From contig NZ_WHJH01000005.1 in NCBI RefSeq assembly GCF_011682145.1, positions 124,001-188,000 on the forward strand: DNA of 64,000 nt, written 5' to 3'. A model generated the notes under the pieces. The model made no database searches and was not told the DNA's origin. It saw only the letters and a list, made by a program, of their open reading frames with translations. Of the stretch, positions 6,305-13,030 are shown one piece after another. Both the position numbers and the translations under genes were made by a program. The first letter of the stretch is position 1, and the number at the start of each line of letters is the position of its first letter. The stretch comes from Massilia mucilaginosa (lineage in GTDB: Bacteria; Pseudomonadota; Gammaproteobacteria; Burkholderiales; Burkholderiaceae_D).

Positions 6305-9262
6305 ATGCAAACATCCCAAGATTCTTCGATTAACCAATTGCACGTCACACCTGGAGCAGCCGCTCCGGCCGCAGCCACCAGCGCCGCCGCTGTCGCCGCC
6401 CGCGGCGACTACCGCATCATCCGCCGCAACGGCGCCGTCGTCGCGTTTGAACCATCGAAGATCTCGATCGCCGTCACCAAGGCCTTTTTGGCCGTGAGCG
6501 GCGGCCAGGGCGCCGGCTCCGCGCGCGTGCGCGAACTGGTCGAGCAACTGACCGACAACGTGGTGTCGGCCCTGATCCGCCGCCAGCCATCGGGCGGCAC
6601 CTTCCACATCGAAGACGTGCAGGACCAGGTCGAACTGTCGCTGATGCGTTCGGGCGAGCACGACGTGGCGCGTGCCTATGTGCTGTACCGCGCCAAGCAC
6701 ATGGAAGAGCGCCGCCTGCAGAAGGAGGCGCAAGGCGCCTCCGCACATCTGACTCCGCCCCAGATCCACGTGCTTGAGAACGGCCAGCGCCGCCTGCTCG
6801 ACATGAACCAGGTGCGCGACCTGATCGCCGCCGCCTGCGTCGGCCTGGAAAAGCACGTCGACGCCGACGCCATCCTGGCCGAAACGGTCAAGAACCTGTA
6901 CGACGGCGTGCCGGTCGAAGAGCTGCACAAGTCCGCCATCCTGGCTGCGCGCGCGCTGATGGAAAAGGACCCGGCTTACTCGCAGGTCACCGCCCGCATC
7001 CTGCTGCACACGATCCGCAAGGAAGTCTTCTGCGAAGAAGTGCCGCAAGCCCAGGCCGCCGCACACTATATAGAGTACTTCCCGAAATACATCGCCAAGG
7101 GCATCGAGAACGAGCTGCTGGACCCGGTCCTGGCCAGCTTCGACCTGGCCAAGCTGGCCCGTGCCCTGGTCGCCGACCGTGACTTGCAGTTCGGCTACAT
7201 CGGCCTGCAAACCCTGTACGACCGCTACTTCCTGCACGTGCGCGATGTGCGCATCGAAATGCCGCAGGCGTTCTACATGCGCGTGGCCATGGGCCTGTCG
7301 CTGCGCGAAGAAAACCGCGAAGCGCGCGCCGTCGAGTTCTACAACCTGCTGTCGTCGTTCGACTTCATGAGCTCGACCCCGACCCTGTTCAACGCCGGCA
7401 CCCTGCGTTCGCAGCTCTCGTCGTGCTACCTGACCACCGTCTCGGACGACCTGGAAGGCATCTACGACGCGATTAAAGAAAACGCGCTGCTGGCCAAGTT
7501 CGCCGGCGGCCTGGGCAACGACTGGACCCCGGTGCGCGCCCTGGGCGCCCACATCAAGGGCACCAACGGCAAGTCGCAAGGCGTGGTGCCGTTCCTGAAA
7601 GTGGTCAACGACACCGCCGTGGCGGTCAACCAGGGCGGCAAGCGCAAGGGCGCGGTGTGCGCCTACCTGGAAACCTGGCACATGGACGTGGAAGAATTCC
7701 TCGACCTGCGCAAGAACACCGGCGACGACCGCCGCCGCACCCACGACATGAACACGGCCAACTGGATTCCCGACCTGTTCATGAAGCGCGTGATGGAAAA
7801 GGGCGACTGGACCCTGTTCTCGCCGTCCGAAACGCCCGACCTGCACGACAAGGTCGGCAAGGCTTTTGAGGCGGCCTACACCGGCTACGAGGCGAAAGCG
7901 GCCGCCGGCGAGATCCGCGTATTCAAGAAGATCGCCGCGCTCGACCTGTGGCGCAAGATGCTGTCGATGCTGTTCGAAACCGGCCACCCATGGATCACCT
8001 TCAAGGACCCATGCAACATCCGTTCGCCACAGCAACACGTGGGCGTGGTCCACAGCTCGAACCTGTGCACCGAGATTACCCTCAACACCAACGAGTCCGA
8101 AATCGCGGTCTGCAACCTGGGCTCGGTGAACTTGCCGGCGCACATGAAAGAAGGCAAGCTGGACCCGGTCAAGCTGCAAAAGACCGTGCGCACCGCGATG
8201 CGCATGCTCGACAACGTCATCGATATCAATTACTACGCCGTCGAAAAAGCCCGCAATTCGAACATGCGCCACCGTCCGGTGGGAATGGGTATCATGGGCT
8301 TCCAGGATTGCCTGCACATGATGCGCGTGCCTTACTCGTCGAACCAGGCGGTTGAATTCGCCGACCGCTCGATGGAAGCGGTGTGCTACTACGCCTACCT
8401 GGCCTCGACCGAGCTGGCCGAAGAGCGCGGCCGCTACGAGTCGTACAGCGGCTCGCTGTGGGATCGCGGCATCCTGCCGCAGGATTCGGTCAAGCTGCTG
8501 GCCGACGAGCGCGGCGGCTACCTGGAAGTCGACATGTCCTCGGCCATGGACTGGACCGTGGTGCGCGAGCGCATCAAGCAGTTCGGCATGCGCAACTCGA
8601 ACTGCGTGGCGATCGCCCCGACCGCGACCATTTCGAACATCATCGGCGTGTCGGCCTGCATCGAACCGACCTTCCAGAACCTGTATGTGAAGTCGAACCT
8701 GTCCGGCGAATTTACCGAGATCAACTCGTACCTGGTGCGCGACCTCAAGGCGCGCGACCTGTGGGACGAAGTCATGATCGCCGACCTGAAATACTTCGAC
8801 GGCTCGCTGGCCAAGATCGACCGCATCCCGCAAGACCTGCGCGACATCTACGCCACCGCCTTCGAAGTCTCGCCGAGCTGGCTGGTGGAGGCGGCATCGC
8901 GCCGCCAGAAGTGGATCGACCAGGCCCAGTCGCTGAACATCTACATGGCTGGCGCGTCCGGCAAGAAGTTAGATGAAACCTACAAGCTGGCCTGGCTGCG
9001 CGGCCTCAAGACCACCTACTACCTGCGCACCATCGCGGCGACCCACATGGAGAAATCGACCTCCAAGACCGGCGCGCTGAACGCGGTGGCGGTGGACGGC
9101 GGCATGTCGGCCCACGCCATGGGCGCGGCGGCCGATACGGCGGCGGCAGCTGCCGCGGCGACGGCGGCATCGGTGGCCGCCGCGGCGGCCGAGGAAGAGG
9201 GCGCGGCGTGCTACCTGCGTCCGGGCGACGATGGTTTCGAGGAATGCGAAGCCTGCCAGTAA
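6305..9262 (+). CDS. nrdA: Class I ribonucleoside-diphosphate reductase, alpha subunit
   Basis: Catalytic subunit that reduces ribonucleoside diphosphates to deoxy forms, cytoplasmic, acting with NrdB. The 985-residue protein has an N-terminal ATP-cone (about residues 38-125), a second ATP-cone-like stretch (about 147-240), then the ten-stranded barrel. Key cysteines are Cys374 in SSCYLTT, the thiyl-radical Cys588 in NLCTEI and Cys603 in AVCNLGSVNL. The C-terminal redox pair is CEACQ at the very end. It is longer than E. coli NrdA (~760 aa) because of the extra N-terminal region. The start follows a near-perfect AGGAGGT. An Ala-rich linker precedes the C-terminal tail. Confidence 0.96.
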   Translation: MQTSQDSSINQLHVTPGAAAPAAATSAAAVAARGDYRIIRRNGAVVAFEPSKISIAVTKAFLAVSGGQGAGSARVRELVEQLTDNVVSALIRRQPSGGTFHIEDVQDQVELSLMRSGEHDVARAYVLYRAKHMEERRLQKEAQGASAHLTPPQIHVLENGQRRLLDMNQVRDLIAAACVGLEKHVDADAILAETVKNLYDGVPVEELHKSAILAARALMEKDPAYSQVTARILLHTIRKEVFCEEVPQAQAAAHYIEYFPKYIAKGIENELLDPVLASFDLAKLARALVADRDLQFGYIGLQTLYDRYFLHVRDVRIEMPQAFYMRVAMGLSLREENREARAVEFYNLLSSFDFMSSTPTLFNAGTLRSQLSSCYLTTVSDDLEGIYDAIKENALLAKFAGGLGNDWTPVRALGAHIKGTNGKSQGVVPFLKVVNDTAVAVNQGGKRKGAVCAYLETWHMDVEEFLDLRKNTGDDRRRTHDMNTANWIPDLFMKRVMEKGDWTLFSPSETPDLHDKVGKAFEAAYTGYEAKAAAGEIRVFKKIAALDLWRKMLSMLFETGHPWITFKDPCNIRSPQQHVGVVHSSNLCTEITLNTNESEIAVCNLGSVNLPAHMKEGKLDPVKLQKTVRTAMRMLDNVIDINYYAVEKARNSNMRHRPVGMGIMGFQDCLHMMRVPYSSNQAVEFADRSMEAVCYYAYLASTELAEERGRYESYSGSLWDRGILPQDSVKLLADERGGYLEVDMSSAMDWTVVRERIKQFGMRNSNCVAIAPTATISNIIGVSACIEPTFQNLYVKSNLSGEFTEINSYLVRDLKARDLWDEVMIADLKYFDGSLAKIDRIPQDLRDIYATAFEVSPSWLVEAASRRQKWIDQAQSLNIYMAGASGKKLDETYKLAWLRGLKTTYYLRTIAATHMEKSTSKTGALNAVAVDGGMSAHAMGAAADTAAAAAAATAASVAAAAAEEEGAACYLRPGDDGFEECEACQ

Positions 9263-9346: not shown

Positions 9347-10456
9347 ATGTTGTCCTGGGACGATGAAACAGCCAGCGCGCCAGCCGCGCGCCCCGCGGCG
9401 CCTAGCGCCGAACCCGCCGCCGATGCCGCATCGGTCGCCAAGCGCGTGCACGCCGACGACAAGCGCATCATCAACGGCAAGACCGATGTCAACCAGCTGG
9501 TCCCGTTCAAGTACAAATGGGCGTGGGACAAGTACCTGGCCGGTTGCGCCAATCACTGGATGCCGCAAGAGGTCAACATGCAGCGCGACATCGAGTTGTG
9601 GAAAAATCCCAACGGTCTGACCGACGACGAGCGCCGCCTGGTGAAACGCAACCTGGGTTTCTTCGTGACCGCCGATTCGCTGGCCGCGAACAACATCGTG
9701 CTCGGCACCTACCGCCACATCACGGCGCCGGAATGCCGCCAGTACCTGCTGCGCCAGGCCTTCGAAGAAGCGATCCACACCCACGCCTATCAATACATCG
9801 TGGAGTCGCTGGGCCTCGATGAAGGCGAGATCTTCAACGCCTACAACGAAGTCAAGTCGATCCGCGACAAGGACGAGTTCCTGATTCCGTTCATCAACAC
9901 GCTGACCGATCCGGCCTTCACCACCGGCACCGTGGAAAACGACCAGAAGCTCCTGAAGTCGCTGATCGTGTTCGCCTGCCTGATGGAAGGGCTGTTCTTC
10001 TACGTCGGCTTCACCCAGATCCTGGCGCTGGGCCGCCAGAACAAGATGATGGGCGCGGCGGAGCAGTACCAGTACATCCTGCGCGACGAGTCGATGCACT
10101 GCAACTTCGGCATCGACCTGATCAACACGATCAAGATGGAAAACCCGCTGCTGTGGACCCCGGCCTTCAAGGAAGAAATCAAGCAGCTGTTCCTGAAAGC
10201 GGTCGACCTGGAGTATGCGTACGCCGAAGACACCATGCCGCGCGGCGTGCTCGGTCTGAACGCCACCATGTTCAAAGGTTACCTGCGCTTCATCGCGAAC
10301 CGCCGCGCGCAGCAGATCGGCCTGGACGCGATGTTCGCCCAGGAAGAAAATCCCTTCCCGTGGATGAGCGAGATGATCGACCTGAAAAAGGAACGCAACT
10401 TCTTCGAGACGCGCGTGACCGAGTACCAGACCGGCGGCGCCTTGAACTGGGAATAA
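9347..10456 (+). CDS. nrdB: Class I ribonucleoside-diphosphate reductase, beta subunit
   Basis: Radical-generating, iron-binding subunit that partners NrdA. The 369-residue protein has metal ligands Glu141 and His144 with the likely radical Tyr148 in EEAIHTHAY, and Glu248 and His251 in DESMHCNF. The N-terminal ~30 residues are an Ala/Pro-rich extension. The ATG follows AAAGAGG. It lies 84 bp after nrdA in the same orientation, so the two form an operon. A perfect 15-bp inverted repeat follows 53 bp after the stop, then a decayed second copy of this same gene. Confidence 0.96.
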
Positions 10457-10509: not shown

Positions 10510-10541
10510 ACTTCGGGCGAACATGGATGTTCGCCCGAAGT
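10510..10541 (+). terminator. Hairpin downstream of nrdB
   Basis: A perfect inverted repeat with 15-bp arms (10510-10524 and 10527-10541), beginning ACTTCGGGCGAACAT. The arms are nearly contiguous, so the tip would open into a small loop. Only a weak T-rich stretch follows (GTTTACG). It is placed to end the nrdAB transcript. Confidence 0.6.
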
Positions 10542-10564: not shown

Positions 10565-11431
10565 TGCGGCGCGTTGGCGCGGCGTCGGGTTGTGGAAAAA
10601 TCCCAACGGTTTGACGATGACGCGCGTCGTCGCACAAAAAAAATCGCGCGCCTTCATGCGCGCCGGTTGGCGCGCCGCCCGGCGCATTATCGCGCGCCGC
10701 AATTGCCATCCAACCCGGTCGCGCCAGGCCGTCCGCGAGCGCATTCGCAGGCACCGAAAGCGTCGCATCGCGACCTCGCCGGAGCTGAGCAAAGGCGCGA
10801 TTGTCGGCGCCCGAAACCGCCTTGAGCCGATCGGCGACATCGCCGCGTTGCGCATATCGTTCATCGATTTCTGTGCGATCCGGTCTCCACGGTGCGCGCT
10901 TTGGCGCGCGCCCGGATGCGCCCGACCTTGCCGATTGCCTTGCCCGGCATGATCGAAGGCGGCTTCTTTTACGCGGTCCTCACCCGATTCCCGCGCGCGC
11001 ATGGCGGGACAAAATGACGGGTGCGGCGAAGCGCTATCAGAACATTTTGCGTGACGAATCAATGCATTGCAATTTTGCGGCCGACTTCATCGACACCATG
11101 CGGATGAAAAAACGCCGCTGCGCACGGCGGCTTGATACGGCGCGGACGCGGCGTCCGTGCCGCACGCATTCATCGATCGGCCGCGCATGCCGACGGCGCC
11201 GCGCGGCGCGCCGTGACGCGCGCGACGCGACGACGTTTCGTGCTTGCGCGCGCCTCATCGCACTGCATCGGGCAGCGCCGCGCGCAACCGGCCGGGCCTG
11301 ATGGCGTGCGTGCGCGAGAAGAAAATTCGCGCCGGCGAATGCGCCAAATGCATGCCTCGGAAAACGCGCTCGGCGTCGTCGCGGCGCGCATCGCCAAACA
11401 CCAAACCGAGGCCGCGTTGAACGGCGAATAA
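10565..11431 (+). pseudogene. Decayed second copy of nrdB
   Basis: This stretch aligns by eye to most of nrdB and is broken by at least three frameshifts. A 22-bp run at 10589-10610 is identical to nrdB 9595-9616 (LWKNPNG). It then follows NrdB codon for codon without gaps through a long stretch (RQAVRERI against RQAFEEAI; later SKGAIVGARN against [10 protein letters not shown]). The frame changes before GMIEGGFFYAV (against [11 protein letters not shown]), again before [20 protein letters not shown], and again before the tail. It ends in QTEAALNGE plus stop against QTGGALNWE plus stop. About the first 75 codons of nrdB are absent. Many other positions are replaced by Arg codons. No functional product is expected. 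Confidence 0.85.
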
Positions 11432-11953
11432 ACGATTTTCAAAACGCGCGACGCGCATGAGGCGCAAGCGGTCGAAAAAAAAGTAAGCGAAACACAGTGT
11501 GCTGGTTGCGCACTGACAAGGTTTTCGTGTACTTTACGTGATTGAATTTGTCAAAACGTGAACGCGAAGATGCAAGCCGCGCGCGACGACAAAATCATCG
11601 ATCAAAATGGGACGCTGATTCAAACAGATATGCGCTTAAACTTCTGCAAAAGACAAAGCCGCACTGCCTGATCCGGTTCAGGCATGGCGGCTTTTTCTTT
11701 TACGGATGTGGGCTCTTGATGTGGACAGCGAACCATGAACACCGTATCCATCGTCTCTGTTTTCAGAAACGACTATAGCTGAAGCGCTGCAAACTTGAGG
11801 AGTTGCAGCAGTTCAGCTGGTGCCGAATTCATTAGCATAAACACCGAACACGTTTGTGCCGATGAATAATTCGCCTGACCTCCAGTTACGGGTCGGACGG
11901 GTTTTACATCTTGTAGCGTGATTTTTTCCCATCGCAGATGAAGGAGAACCCAA
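11432..11953. other. Intergenic region between the nrdB remnant and the H1-like gene
   Basis: No convincing gene. It is noticeably less GC-rich than its surroundings. A short open frame from ATG 11571 (about 33 codons) begins with a sequence faintly like the NrdB N-terminal DDKRIINGK and ends inside a strong terminator; I do not call it a gene. The last 12 bases before the H1-like ATG include an AAGGAG ribosome-binding site. Confidence 0.5.
11655..11701 (+). terminator. Rho-independent terminator
   Basis: AAAGCCGC (11655-11662) pairs with GCGGCTTT (11687-11694). After a 2-nt internal mismatch, TGCCTGA (11665-11671) pairs with TCAGGCA (11678-11684). The loop is 6 nt, and the tract TTTTTCTTTT follows. 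It isolates the H1-like gene from upstream transcription. Confidence 0.8.
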
Positions 11954-13030
11954 ATGGCAACAGCCGCTAAGAAACCCGCAGTAAAGAAACCAGTCGCGAA
12001 AGCCACTGCCGAGAAACCAGCGAAGAAAGTCGCCGCGAAAGCAGTAGCAGCTAAAGCAGTCGCAGCCAAGCCGGCAGCGAAAGCCGCAGCGAAACCTGCA
12101 GCGAAAAAAGTTGTAGCGAAAGCCGCAGCCAAGCCAGCAGCGAAAGCCGCAGCGAAGCCGGCAGCGAAAGCCGCAGCCAAGCCAGCAGTGAAAAAAGCGG
12201 CAACCAAGCCAGTAGCGAAAAAAGCAGCGGCAAAAACCGCAGCCAAGCCAGCAGCCAAGCCAGTAGCGAAGAAAGCAGCAGCCAAGTCGGCCGCCAAGCC
12301 AGTCGCTAAAAAAGCGGCAGCCAAGCCAGTCGCCAAAAAAGCGGCAGCCAAGCCAGCAGCAAGCAAGGCAGCAGCCAAGCCGGCAGCCAAGGCAAAAGCG
12401 ACGGCCAAGCCAGTCGCTAAAAAGGCAGCAGCCAAGCCAGCAGCCAAGGCAGCAGCAAAGCCGGCCAAGGCAGCAGCCAAGCCAGTAGCGAAGAAAGCCA
12501 CGGCGAAATCGTCGGCCAAGCCAGCAGCCAAGTCGGCAGCGAAGCCAGCAGCCAAGCCGGTAGCGAAGAAAGCCGCCGCCAAACCTGTCGCCAAGAAAGC
12601 AGCAGCAAAGCCAGCAGCCACCAAAGCCGCAGCCAAGCCAGCCGCCAAAAAAGCAGCAGCGACGTCGACCGCCAAGAAACCAGCAGTAACTAAAGCAGCA
12701 GCAAAGCCAGCAGCGAAAGCAGCAGCAAAGCCAGCAGCAAAAAAGGTGGCGGCTAAGCCAGCAGCAAAAAAGCCGGTTAAGGCTGCGGCAACGCCAGCAG
12801 CCAAGCCAGCACCAGCTCCAGCAGCGGCGATTCCTGCCGTCGCAGCAGCCAAGCCGGCCGTAAAGAAAGCGGCAGCCCCTAAAAAGGCAGCGGCACCGAA
12901 AGCCGACGCGGCCAAGCCAGCGGCAGCTCCCGCACCAGCGGCAGCGGCAGCACCGGCACCTGCGCCAGCGGCGAAAACTGTGTTGGCTCCGGCAGCAGCA
13001 TGGCCATTCCCGACCAGCAGCCGTCCGTAA
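11954..13030 (+). CDS. Histone H1-like alanine/lysine/proline-rich DNA-binding protein
   Basis: A 358-residue protein built almost entirely of Lys-Ala-Pro repeats such as KPAAKKAAAKPVAKKAA. It resembles the C-terminal tail of eukaryotic H1 and bacterial H1-like proteins (for example Bordetella BpH1/BpH2), which bind DNA non-specifically. There is no globular domain. The C-terminal ~90 residues turn Ala/Pro-rich and end in AAAWPFPTSSRP, which looks like a distinct conserved tail. It uses many GCA alanine codons, unlike the GCG/GCC-rich neighbours. The ATG follows AAGGAG and a terminator follows the stop. The repeat number probably varies between strains. Confidence 0.88.
   Translation: MATAAKKPAVKKPVAKATAEKPAKKVAAKAVAAKAVAAKPAAKAAAKPAAKKVVAKAAAKPAAKAAAKPAAKAAAKPAVKKAATKPVAKKAAAKTAAKPAAKPVAKKAAAKSAAKPVAKKAAAKPVAKKAAAKPAASKAAAKPAAKAKATAKPVAKKAAAKPAAKAAAKPAKAAAKPVAKKATAKSSAKPAAKSAAKPAAKPVAKKAAAKPVAKKAAAKPAATKAAAKPAAKKAAATSTAKKPAVTKAAAKPAAKAAAKPAAKKVAAKPAAKKPVKAAATPAAKPAPAPAAAIPAVAAAKPAVKKAAAPKKAAAPKADAAKPAAAPAPAAAAAPAPAPAAKTVLAPAAAWPFPTSSRP

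Follow-up and report, generated by a model that had tools for sequence, protein, structure and literature searches.

Regulatory sites can be embedded in coding sequence, where the codons that carry them are put to dual use, and the two roles may later be split between duplicates of the gene. The locus described here, in which a decayed second copy of nrdB follows nrdAB, resembles such cases in that the sites would have lain inside an open reading frame and that, with a second copy, one copy keeps the protein and the other keeps the sites. It differs from them in that a bacterial core metabolic gene is concerned and that the copy is almost erased, with two short islands left. Ordinary bacterial pseudogenes likewise show frameshifts, truncation and loss of coding beside an intact copy, whereas here two islands are exact across the genus. 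The datA and DARS2 sites of Escherichia coli bring DnaA-box-like and IHF-like sites together in one non-coding region, as do the remnants studied here, but the remnants have one DnaA box and a variable spacing. A search of the literature, judged by titles, found no described case of such stranded sites. What is new at this locus is what survives the decay, that is, two exact DNA islands in the remnants.

A decayed second copy of nrdB

The window is a 64-kb stretch of the Massilia mucilaginosa genome (G000 in the comparisons below), and the features of the locus are listed in Table 1. A first-pass annotation had proposed a decayed, frameshifted second nrdB directly after nrdAB at 10565-11431. 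Local DNA alignment of this interval with nrdB (9347-10456) gave a score of 177.5, as compared with a mean of 18.9 (sd 2.4, maximum 29) for 200 dinucleotide-preserving shuffles, and other 867-base stretches of the window scored at most 27.5 against nrdB. The comparison with shuffled sequence of the same composition, which the annotation itself had suggested as a check, therefore leaves the real alignment far above the null, and the existence of the copy is confirmed. The alignment extends from window position 10577, where it meets base 237 of nrdB, as far as the stop at 11431, which both sequences share. The homology is therefore truncated at the 5' end, with the first 236 bases of nrdB absent from the decayed copy, and its start lies 12 bases within the annotated interval.

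Most of the finer points of the annotation held as well. A 22-bp identical run, GTTGTGGAAAAATCCCAACGGT, is found in both nrdB and the decayed copy, the metal-site block RDESMHCNF is retained, and the stop position is common to the two. The claim of at least three frameshifts agrees with the four pieces recovered by tblastn in frames +2, +1, +3 and +1, which correspond to NrdB residues 80-184, 186-224, 231-265 and 316-369. As it stands, the ORF at 10801-11301, which contains RDESMHCNF, matches Pfam Ribonuc_red_sm with an E value of 3.7e-6, under the Pfam cut-off score. Two descriptions were accurate in part. The block said to be gap-free for about 80 codons exists, but our own alignment places short gaps within it; the hairpin taken for the nrdAB terminator exists too, but a simple terminator scan did not list it.

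That the frame changes are an artefact of sequencing or assembly has, in our judgement, a negligible probability. The functional nrdB of one relative, G005, is itself frameshifted, which means that assembly quality varies. The decayed copy, however, has diverged from nrdB at roughly one position in three, and both its place and its islands, I1 and I2, agree in independent assemblies of 11 species. As 10 further genomes of the genus have decayed copies in this position, a sequencing fault of one genome is unlikely.

Table 1. Features of the nrdAB locus in the window
Feature	Position	Strand	Basis or remark
nrdA, ribonucleotide reductase large chain, intact	6305..9262	+	Pfam PF02867, PF03477, PF00317
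nrdB, intact functional copy, lineage B2	9347..10456	+	Pfam PF00268, E 2.8e-90
I1 sequence within intact nrdB, TTGTGGAAAAATCCCAACG	9596..9614	+	common to nrdB of 5 close relatives
Inverted repeat (hairpin) after nrdB	10510..10541	.	absent from terminator scan list
Decayed nrdB copy, lineage B1, 5'-truncated, at least 3 frame changes	10577..11431	+	alignment, relatives, tree
I1 island, TTGTGGAAAAATCCCAACG	10590..10608	+	last 18 letters exact in 11/11 decayed copies
DnaA-box match within I1, TTTTCCACA	10591-10599	minus	sequence match
A/T tract upstream of I2	11039..11048	+	composition kept, not sequence
I2 island, AATCAATGCATTGC	11057..11070	+	exact in 11/11 decayed copies; AATCAATGCATTG matches the IHF consensus exactly
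Conserved downstream block F, start (GTTGCGCACTGACAAGGTTTTCGTG...GTGATTGAATTTGTCAAAACGTGAA)	11505..11562	+	conservation
Hairpin and T run at end of F, candidate small-RNA terminator	11657..11700	+	conserved alignment
Histone H1-like lysine/alanine-rich gene, downstream	11954..13030	+	weak Pfam HC2 match

Three arrangements in the genus

We compared 17 genomes of one genus, Massilia. The strongly conserved, non-coding block F spans about 11505-11705; the 251 bases at 11470-11720 find a match in every one of the 17 genomes and in 23 of the 100 relatives that were searched. In the first arrangement, a decayed copy is recognisable between nrdB and F. It is found in 11 of the 17 genomes, namely G000, G001 (M. 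cavernae), G002 (M. agrisoli), G004 (M. soli), G005, G006, G008 (M. polaris), G009, G011, G013 and G014 (M. atriviolacea). The copy is young in G009, with an identity of 0.787 to the nrdB of the same genome; those of G000 and G014 are older, the latter being cut by a contig end, and of the remaining eight little more than the islands is left. A contig end in G001 puts its decayed copy on a different contig from nrdB. By tblastn, nrdB elsewhere is intact except in G005, where it is frameshifted, and in G001, where it is cut by the contig end.

The second arrangement consists of a single nrdB whose end directly abuts F. It is present in two of the 17 genomes, G010 (M. glaciei) and G015 (UBA6018), and also in a neighbouring genus, in G019 (M. 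psychrophila) and G084 (M. eurypsychrophila); in G144, from the same genus as these last two, the start of nrdB is alike and the contig ends inside the gene. In the third arrangement, seen in the remaining four genomes (G003, M. frigida; G007; G012; G016), a single nrdB is followed by a spacer of 1.06-1.19 kb before F. These spacers have no trace of I1 or I2, and I2 is nowhere in these four genomes. The islands are thus dispensable in some species, as four of 17 genomes have neither of them downstream, and the spacers may be remnants that lack the islands.

The spacers of G003, G016, G012 and G007 (L031, L032, L033 and L034) hold other conserved islands, AATACGTCTCGCAGCAGCAACGAACAGCG and GCATAGCGCCTTTAGGTACGG, in GCGC-rich sequence, and GCATAGCGCCTTTAGGTACGG also occurs in G108 (L097) with one mismatch. 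Islands of this kind upstream of F would fit an alternative version of an I1-I2-F-like region. When the origin of the AATACGTCTCGCAGCAGCAACGAACAGCG/GCATAGCGCCTTTAGGTACGG-type islands was sought in 126 genomes of the family, 54 had matches, almost all of which fell in the GCGC-rich central part of the query, and no source gene was found. Several further observations were made along the locus. M. soli (G004; L042, contig C22) has a second intact nrdB on another contig, with a protein 86% identical. The interval between nrdB and I1 gathers inserted genes, as at 2204-7105 of L044 (G013) and 4408-5960 of L026 (G008); the G008 insert holds a TPR-type gene and IS200/IS605-like sequence and the G013 insert several ORFs, all named by eye from the sequence. 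Outside the islands, the decayed copies drift to 35-81 GCGC per kb as compared with 23.6 in the window, and to CpG odds of 1.5-2.0 as compared with 1.25, an unusual end point of decay.

The decayed copies belong to a separate nrdB lineage

The nrdB tree joins the decayed copies from three genomes (G000, G009 and G014) to the single-copy genes of G010, G015 and G019, with ultrafast bootstrap values of 95 and 99. A tree of a larger set of sequences again placed the G009 copy with the single-copy nrdB, including that of G084 (ultrafast bootstrap 87-100). We refer to the decayed copies together with the single-copy nrdB lineage as B1, and to the intact upstream nrdB of the remnant-bearing genomes as B2. 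By region, the support for the B1 grouping was 70 to 99 from bases 1-600 and 100 from bases 601-900, and it was still 79 after the island regions had been removed. The grouping was not recovered from the last 207 bases of nrdB, which indicates that recombination has occurred, and it was not seen in the nrdA tree. Similarity alone is nearly tied, the G009 copy having an identity of 0.790 to G010 and 0.787 to its own nrdB.

The first-pass annotation had left the choice between a tandem duplication and a transferred RNR beta gene, in either case in decay. A recent tandem duplicate of the adjacent nrdB is excluded, because the decayed copy groups with the single-copy nrdB of other species, in B1. 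The decay is real but incomplete, as two DNA islands have been spared exactly across the genus. The B1 single-copy nrdB of relatives is immediately followed by the same 3' flank, so the ruin stands at the native nrdB position. The upstream B2 gene could have come from either an old tandem duplication or an arrival from outside. In G009 there is a weak nrdA trace upstream of the decayed copy (score 31.5, as compared with a maximum of 20 in 15 shuffles), which would fit an old duplication of nrdAB. When nrdA remnants were sought upstream of I1 in the 11 genomes, G009 alone was clear and G001 was marginal (29.5 as compared with 27.5), the others being at or near shuffle level.

Two islands survive exactly in all decayed copies

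I1 (TGTGGAAAAATCCCAACG) and I2 (AATCAATGCATTGC) are exact in 11 of the 11 decayed copies, a count that is conditional, since the remnants were recognised largely through the islands and island-free remnants would be missed. The 19-letter form of I1 is exact in ten of them, with one change in G011. In an alignment-free comparison, the only 8- to 12-mers common to all 11 remnants were those of I1 and I2, GCGC-type strings aside. When 18-nt windows of the intact B1 nrdB of G015 were scanned against the eight oldest remnants, which amount to about four groups rather than eight independent cases, the mean score was 18.0 of 18 for I1 and 16.9 for the best I2 window. The median of the 288 windows in the same scan was 11.25, and 40 shuffled 18-mers had a mean of 10.8 and a maximum of 12.4; I1 and I2 were the only outliers. 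The rest of the remnants fared differently in pairwise alignment, a rough measure with 8 shuffles each: between the islands z was below 5 in 38 of 45 genome pairs and at least 5 in seven, and after I2 it was below 5 in 37 and at least 5 in eight. These observations give good support for the survival of two DNA islands in exact form.

Exact I2 occurs once per genome in 13 genomes, at this locus only, and the eight oldest genomes have no second I1 within one mismatch. Copying from other places in the genome therefore does not explain the survival. Given the broken frame, the survival of the islands points to selection on DNA; as they are neither copied nor read as protein, selection on DNA, or on a short unstructured RNA, is what remains. 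The remnants have two of the marks of an nrdB pseudogene, similarity to nrdB and a disrupted reading frame, but the third, an absence of selective constraint, is contradicted by I1 and I2 being exact in every copy.

Both islands are also exact in all four complete single-copy B1 genes (G010, G015, G019 and G084). The longest run shared by these four genes, 41 nt at nrdB 730-770, contains I2, and I1 lies within one of three runs tied as second-longest at 29 nt. In the functional B2 nrdB of the remnant-bearing genomes, I2 is exact in none of 11 and I1 in two. This pattern fits a release of B2 from a constraint borne by B1. We do not claim it as proof, because the same pattern would result if only B1 ever had I2, and because the single-copy genes are inter-related. 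The relatives that have I1 in nrdB, like the window genome, are G003, G007, G009, G012 and G016. In G034 and G074, from other genera, I1 is in nrdB without I2, so that I1 alone can be an ordinary coding state. A named genome collection had I1 in 50 stretches, 17 of them from genomes of the nrdB set. One contig with I1 (L095) is viral, as judged from its ORF list.

The islands keep their distance to block F

The distance from the nrdB stop to I1 ranges from 127 to 4903 bases in nine genomes, with inserted genes in several. In net length, I1-I2 measures 327-490 and I2-F 358-448, never above the single-copy lengths (493 and 451-463, respectively) in ten of ten remnants. All gains in length fall between nrdB and I1, and none falls within the I1-I2-F stretch. 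The steady lengths within I1-I2-F and the variable one between nrdB and I1 indicate that the islands stay with F, not with nrdB. Block F ends in a hairpin and a T run with matched changes on both arms (alignment of 21 sequences, G012 and G014 left out), a hairpin that is not in the list of the terminator scan. The folding z of F is -1.5 to -4.6, and Rfam gave three matches up to E 1, all far below the gathering score. Lying between nrdB and the H1-like gene, F is a candidate small RNA. The H1-like gene itself matches Pfam HC2 with 22 bits, under the 40-bit cut-off. We propose that I1, I2 and F together may act in cis to regulate either the F transcript or the H1-like gene.

Candidate binding proteins

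The IHF consensus is given as WATCAANNNNTTR in PMC4585315, and dA-dT-rich upstream bases are reported in PMC3112066 to matter at some IHF sites. I2 is the sole exact match to WATCAANNNNTTR in the window; shuffling the whole window produces an exact match in 38 of 100 trials. The match was exact in the window and across the scan of 10 remnants, and the eleventh, G014, has the same letters. The A/T-rich upstream side of IHF sites is found in 11 of 11 remnants: A/T stands at offsets -10 to -13 of I2 in all of them and at the other offsets from -9 to -18 in 7 to 10, as compared with an A/T background of 0.38 overall between the islands. This A/T tract derives in part from the codons of nrdB. Whereas IHF does not require a TGCA centre, all 14 letters of I2 are invariant, including the free centre. 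On balance we favour, by a modest degree of confidence, I2 as a putative IHF site.

Within I1 lies TTTTCCACA, which fits the DnaA box TTWTNCACA; when the window is shuffled, three DnaA boxes occur in 18 of 100 cases. Since the remaining half of I1 is just as invariant, DnaA alone does not account for the island. Both IHF and DnaA were chosen post hoc from several motif families viewed by eye. Sigma-54 enhancer, CRP-, Fis-, LacI- and NrdR-type sites were rejected, as a comparison by eye with their consensus sequences showed no convincing fit.

Discussion

The two islands are probably cis-acting DNA sites that were formerly inside nrdB and are now stranded in the corpse of the gene. The ancestor would have had a B1-type nrdB whose coding sequence also held I1 and I2 as cis-acting DNA sites, about 950 and 460 bases, respectively, upstream of F, which may be the promoter-proximal region for both the H1-like gene and the candidate small RNA. 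The protein-making role would have passed, in most of the genus, to a second nrdB (B2) immediately upstream. B1 could then have lost its frame and nearly all of its sequence, while selection kept I1 and I2 as DNA. I2 would most likely be an IHF bending site and I1 a protein-binding site, possibly for DnaA, and the I1-I2-F unit would be the upstream regulatory region of F or the H1-like gene.

Several other readings have to be weighed against this one. An ordinary pseudogene, that is, a neutral relic in which the islands survive by chance or shared recency, accords with the broken frame, the 5' truncation and the GCGC-rich drift, as well as with the four of 17 genomes that have no islands and the fact that remnants were found through them. 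We consider it unlikely, as the eight oldest remnants are near shuffle level elsewhere and yet have the same two islands exact in all, and chance survival of 32 letters over several saturated lineages is not credible. What is conserved could instead be a functional RNA from the old gene, either long and structured or antisense to nrdB. F looks transcribed, with its terminator-like hairpin, and the nrdB of this genome contains the I1 sequence unchanged, but the folding z of I1-I2 and I2-F scatters around zero, from -3.0 to +1.4 in 10 genomes (lowest in the remnants of G013, -2.99, and G006, -2.12), so that folding over the remnant is not more stable than in shuffles. In the eight oldest genomes, moreover, nrdB has drifted from I1 and I2, and the islands thus do not track nrdB as a target. 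We give an RNA of this kind little credence.

There is only a slim chance that the locus is the scar of a mobile element, with I1 as the attachment site in both nrdB and the remnant and the upstream nrdB borne by the element. The homology in the window does start 13 bases before I1, which forms a direct repeat flanking the intervening DNA, and 0.6-4.9 kb lie between nrdB and I1 in other genomes. In G009, however, the homology continues upstream of I1 and is followed by the weak nrdA trace; there is no identity step at I1 along nrdB, no integrase was found in the one large insert whose ORFs were listed (G013), and I2 is left unexplained. The presence of TTTTCCACA and an IHF consensus site in all 11 remnants, together with an nrdB located 8-10% of the genome from dnaA in five of six genomes checked, brings to mind the datA or DARS type of chromosomal site, which controls DnaA. 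As described in PMC4585315 and PMC10380432, datA needs several DnaA boxes at a set spacing from the IHF site. Each of 10 remnants has a single exact DnaA box, with one-mismatch boxes near shuffle level, and the I1-I2 spacing varies from 327 to 490, so that the pattern of at least three DnaA boxes fixed relative to an IHF site is absent. G017 and G108, which are among the five at 8-10% from dnaA, have neither island, and the distance from dnaA hence reflects gene order only. A site of the datA or DARS kind is accordingly quite improbable.

If the islands are indeed stranded cis-acting sites, a further step can be suggested more tentatively: a core metabolic gene may also have served to carry a chromosomal control element made up of two sites, with the conflict between codons and sites resolved by the second copy. 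Control sites in essential genes are hard to see because they are masked by the protein constraint. Comparing decayed copies would then reveal regulatory DNA hidden in coding sequence, in the manner of a natural footprinting experiment. With the protein constraint gone and the sites remaining, the function of intragenic DNA sites would be testable by deletion, leaving the essential gene untouched. More broadly, the label 'pseudogene' can hide a conserved regulatory element.
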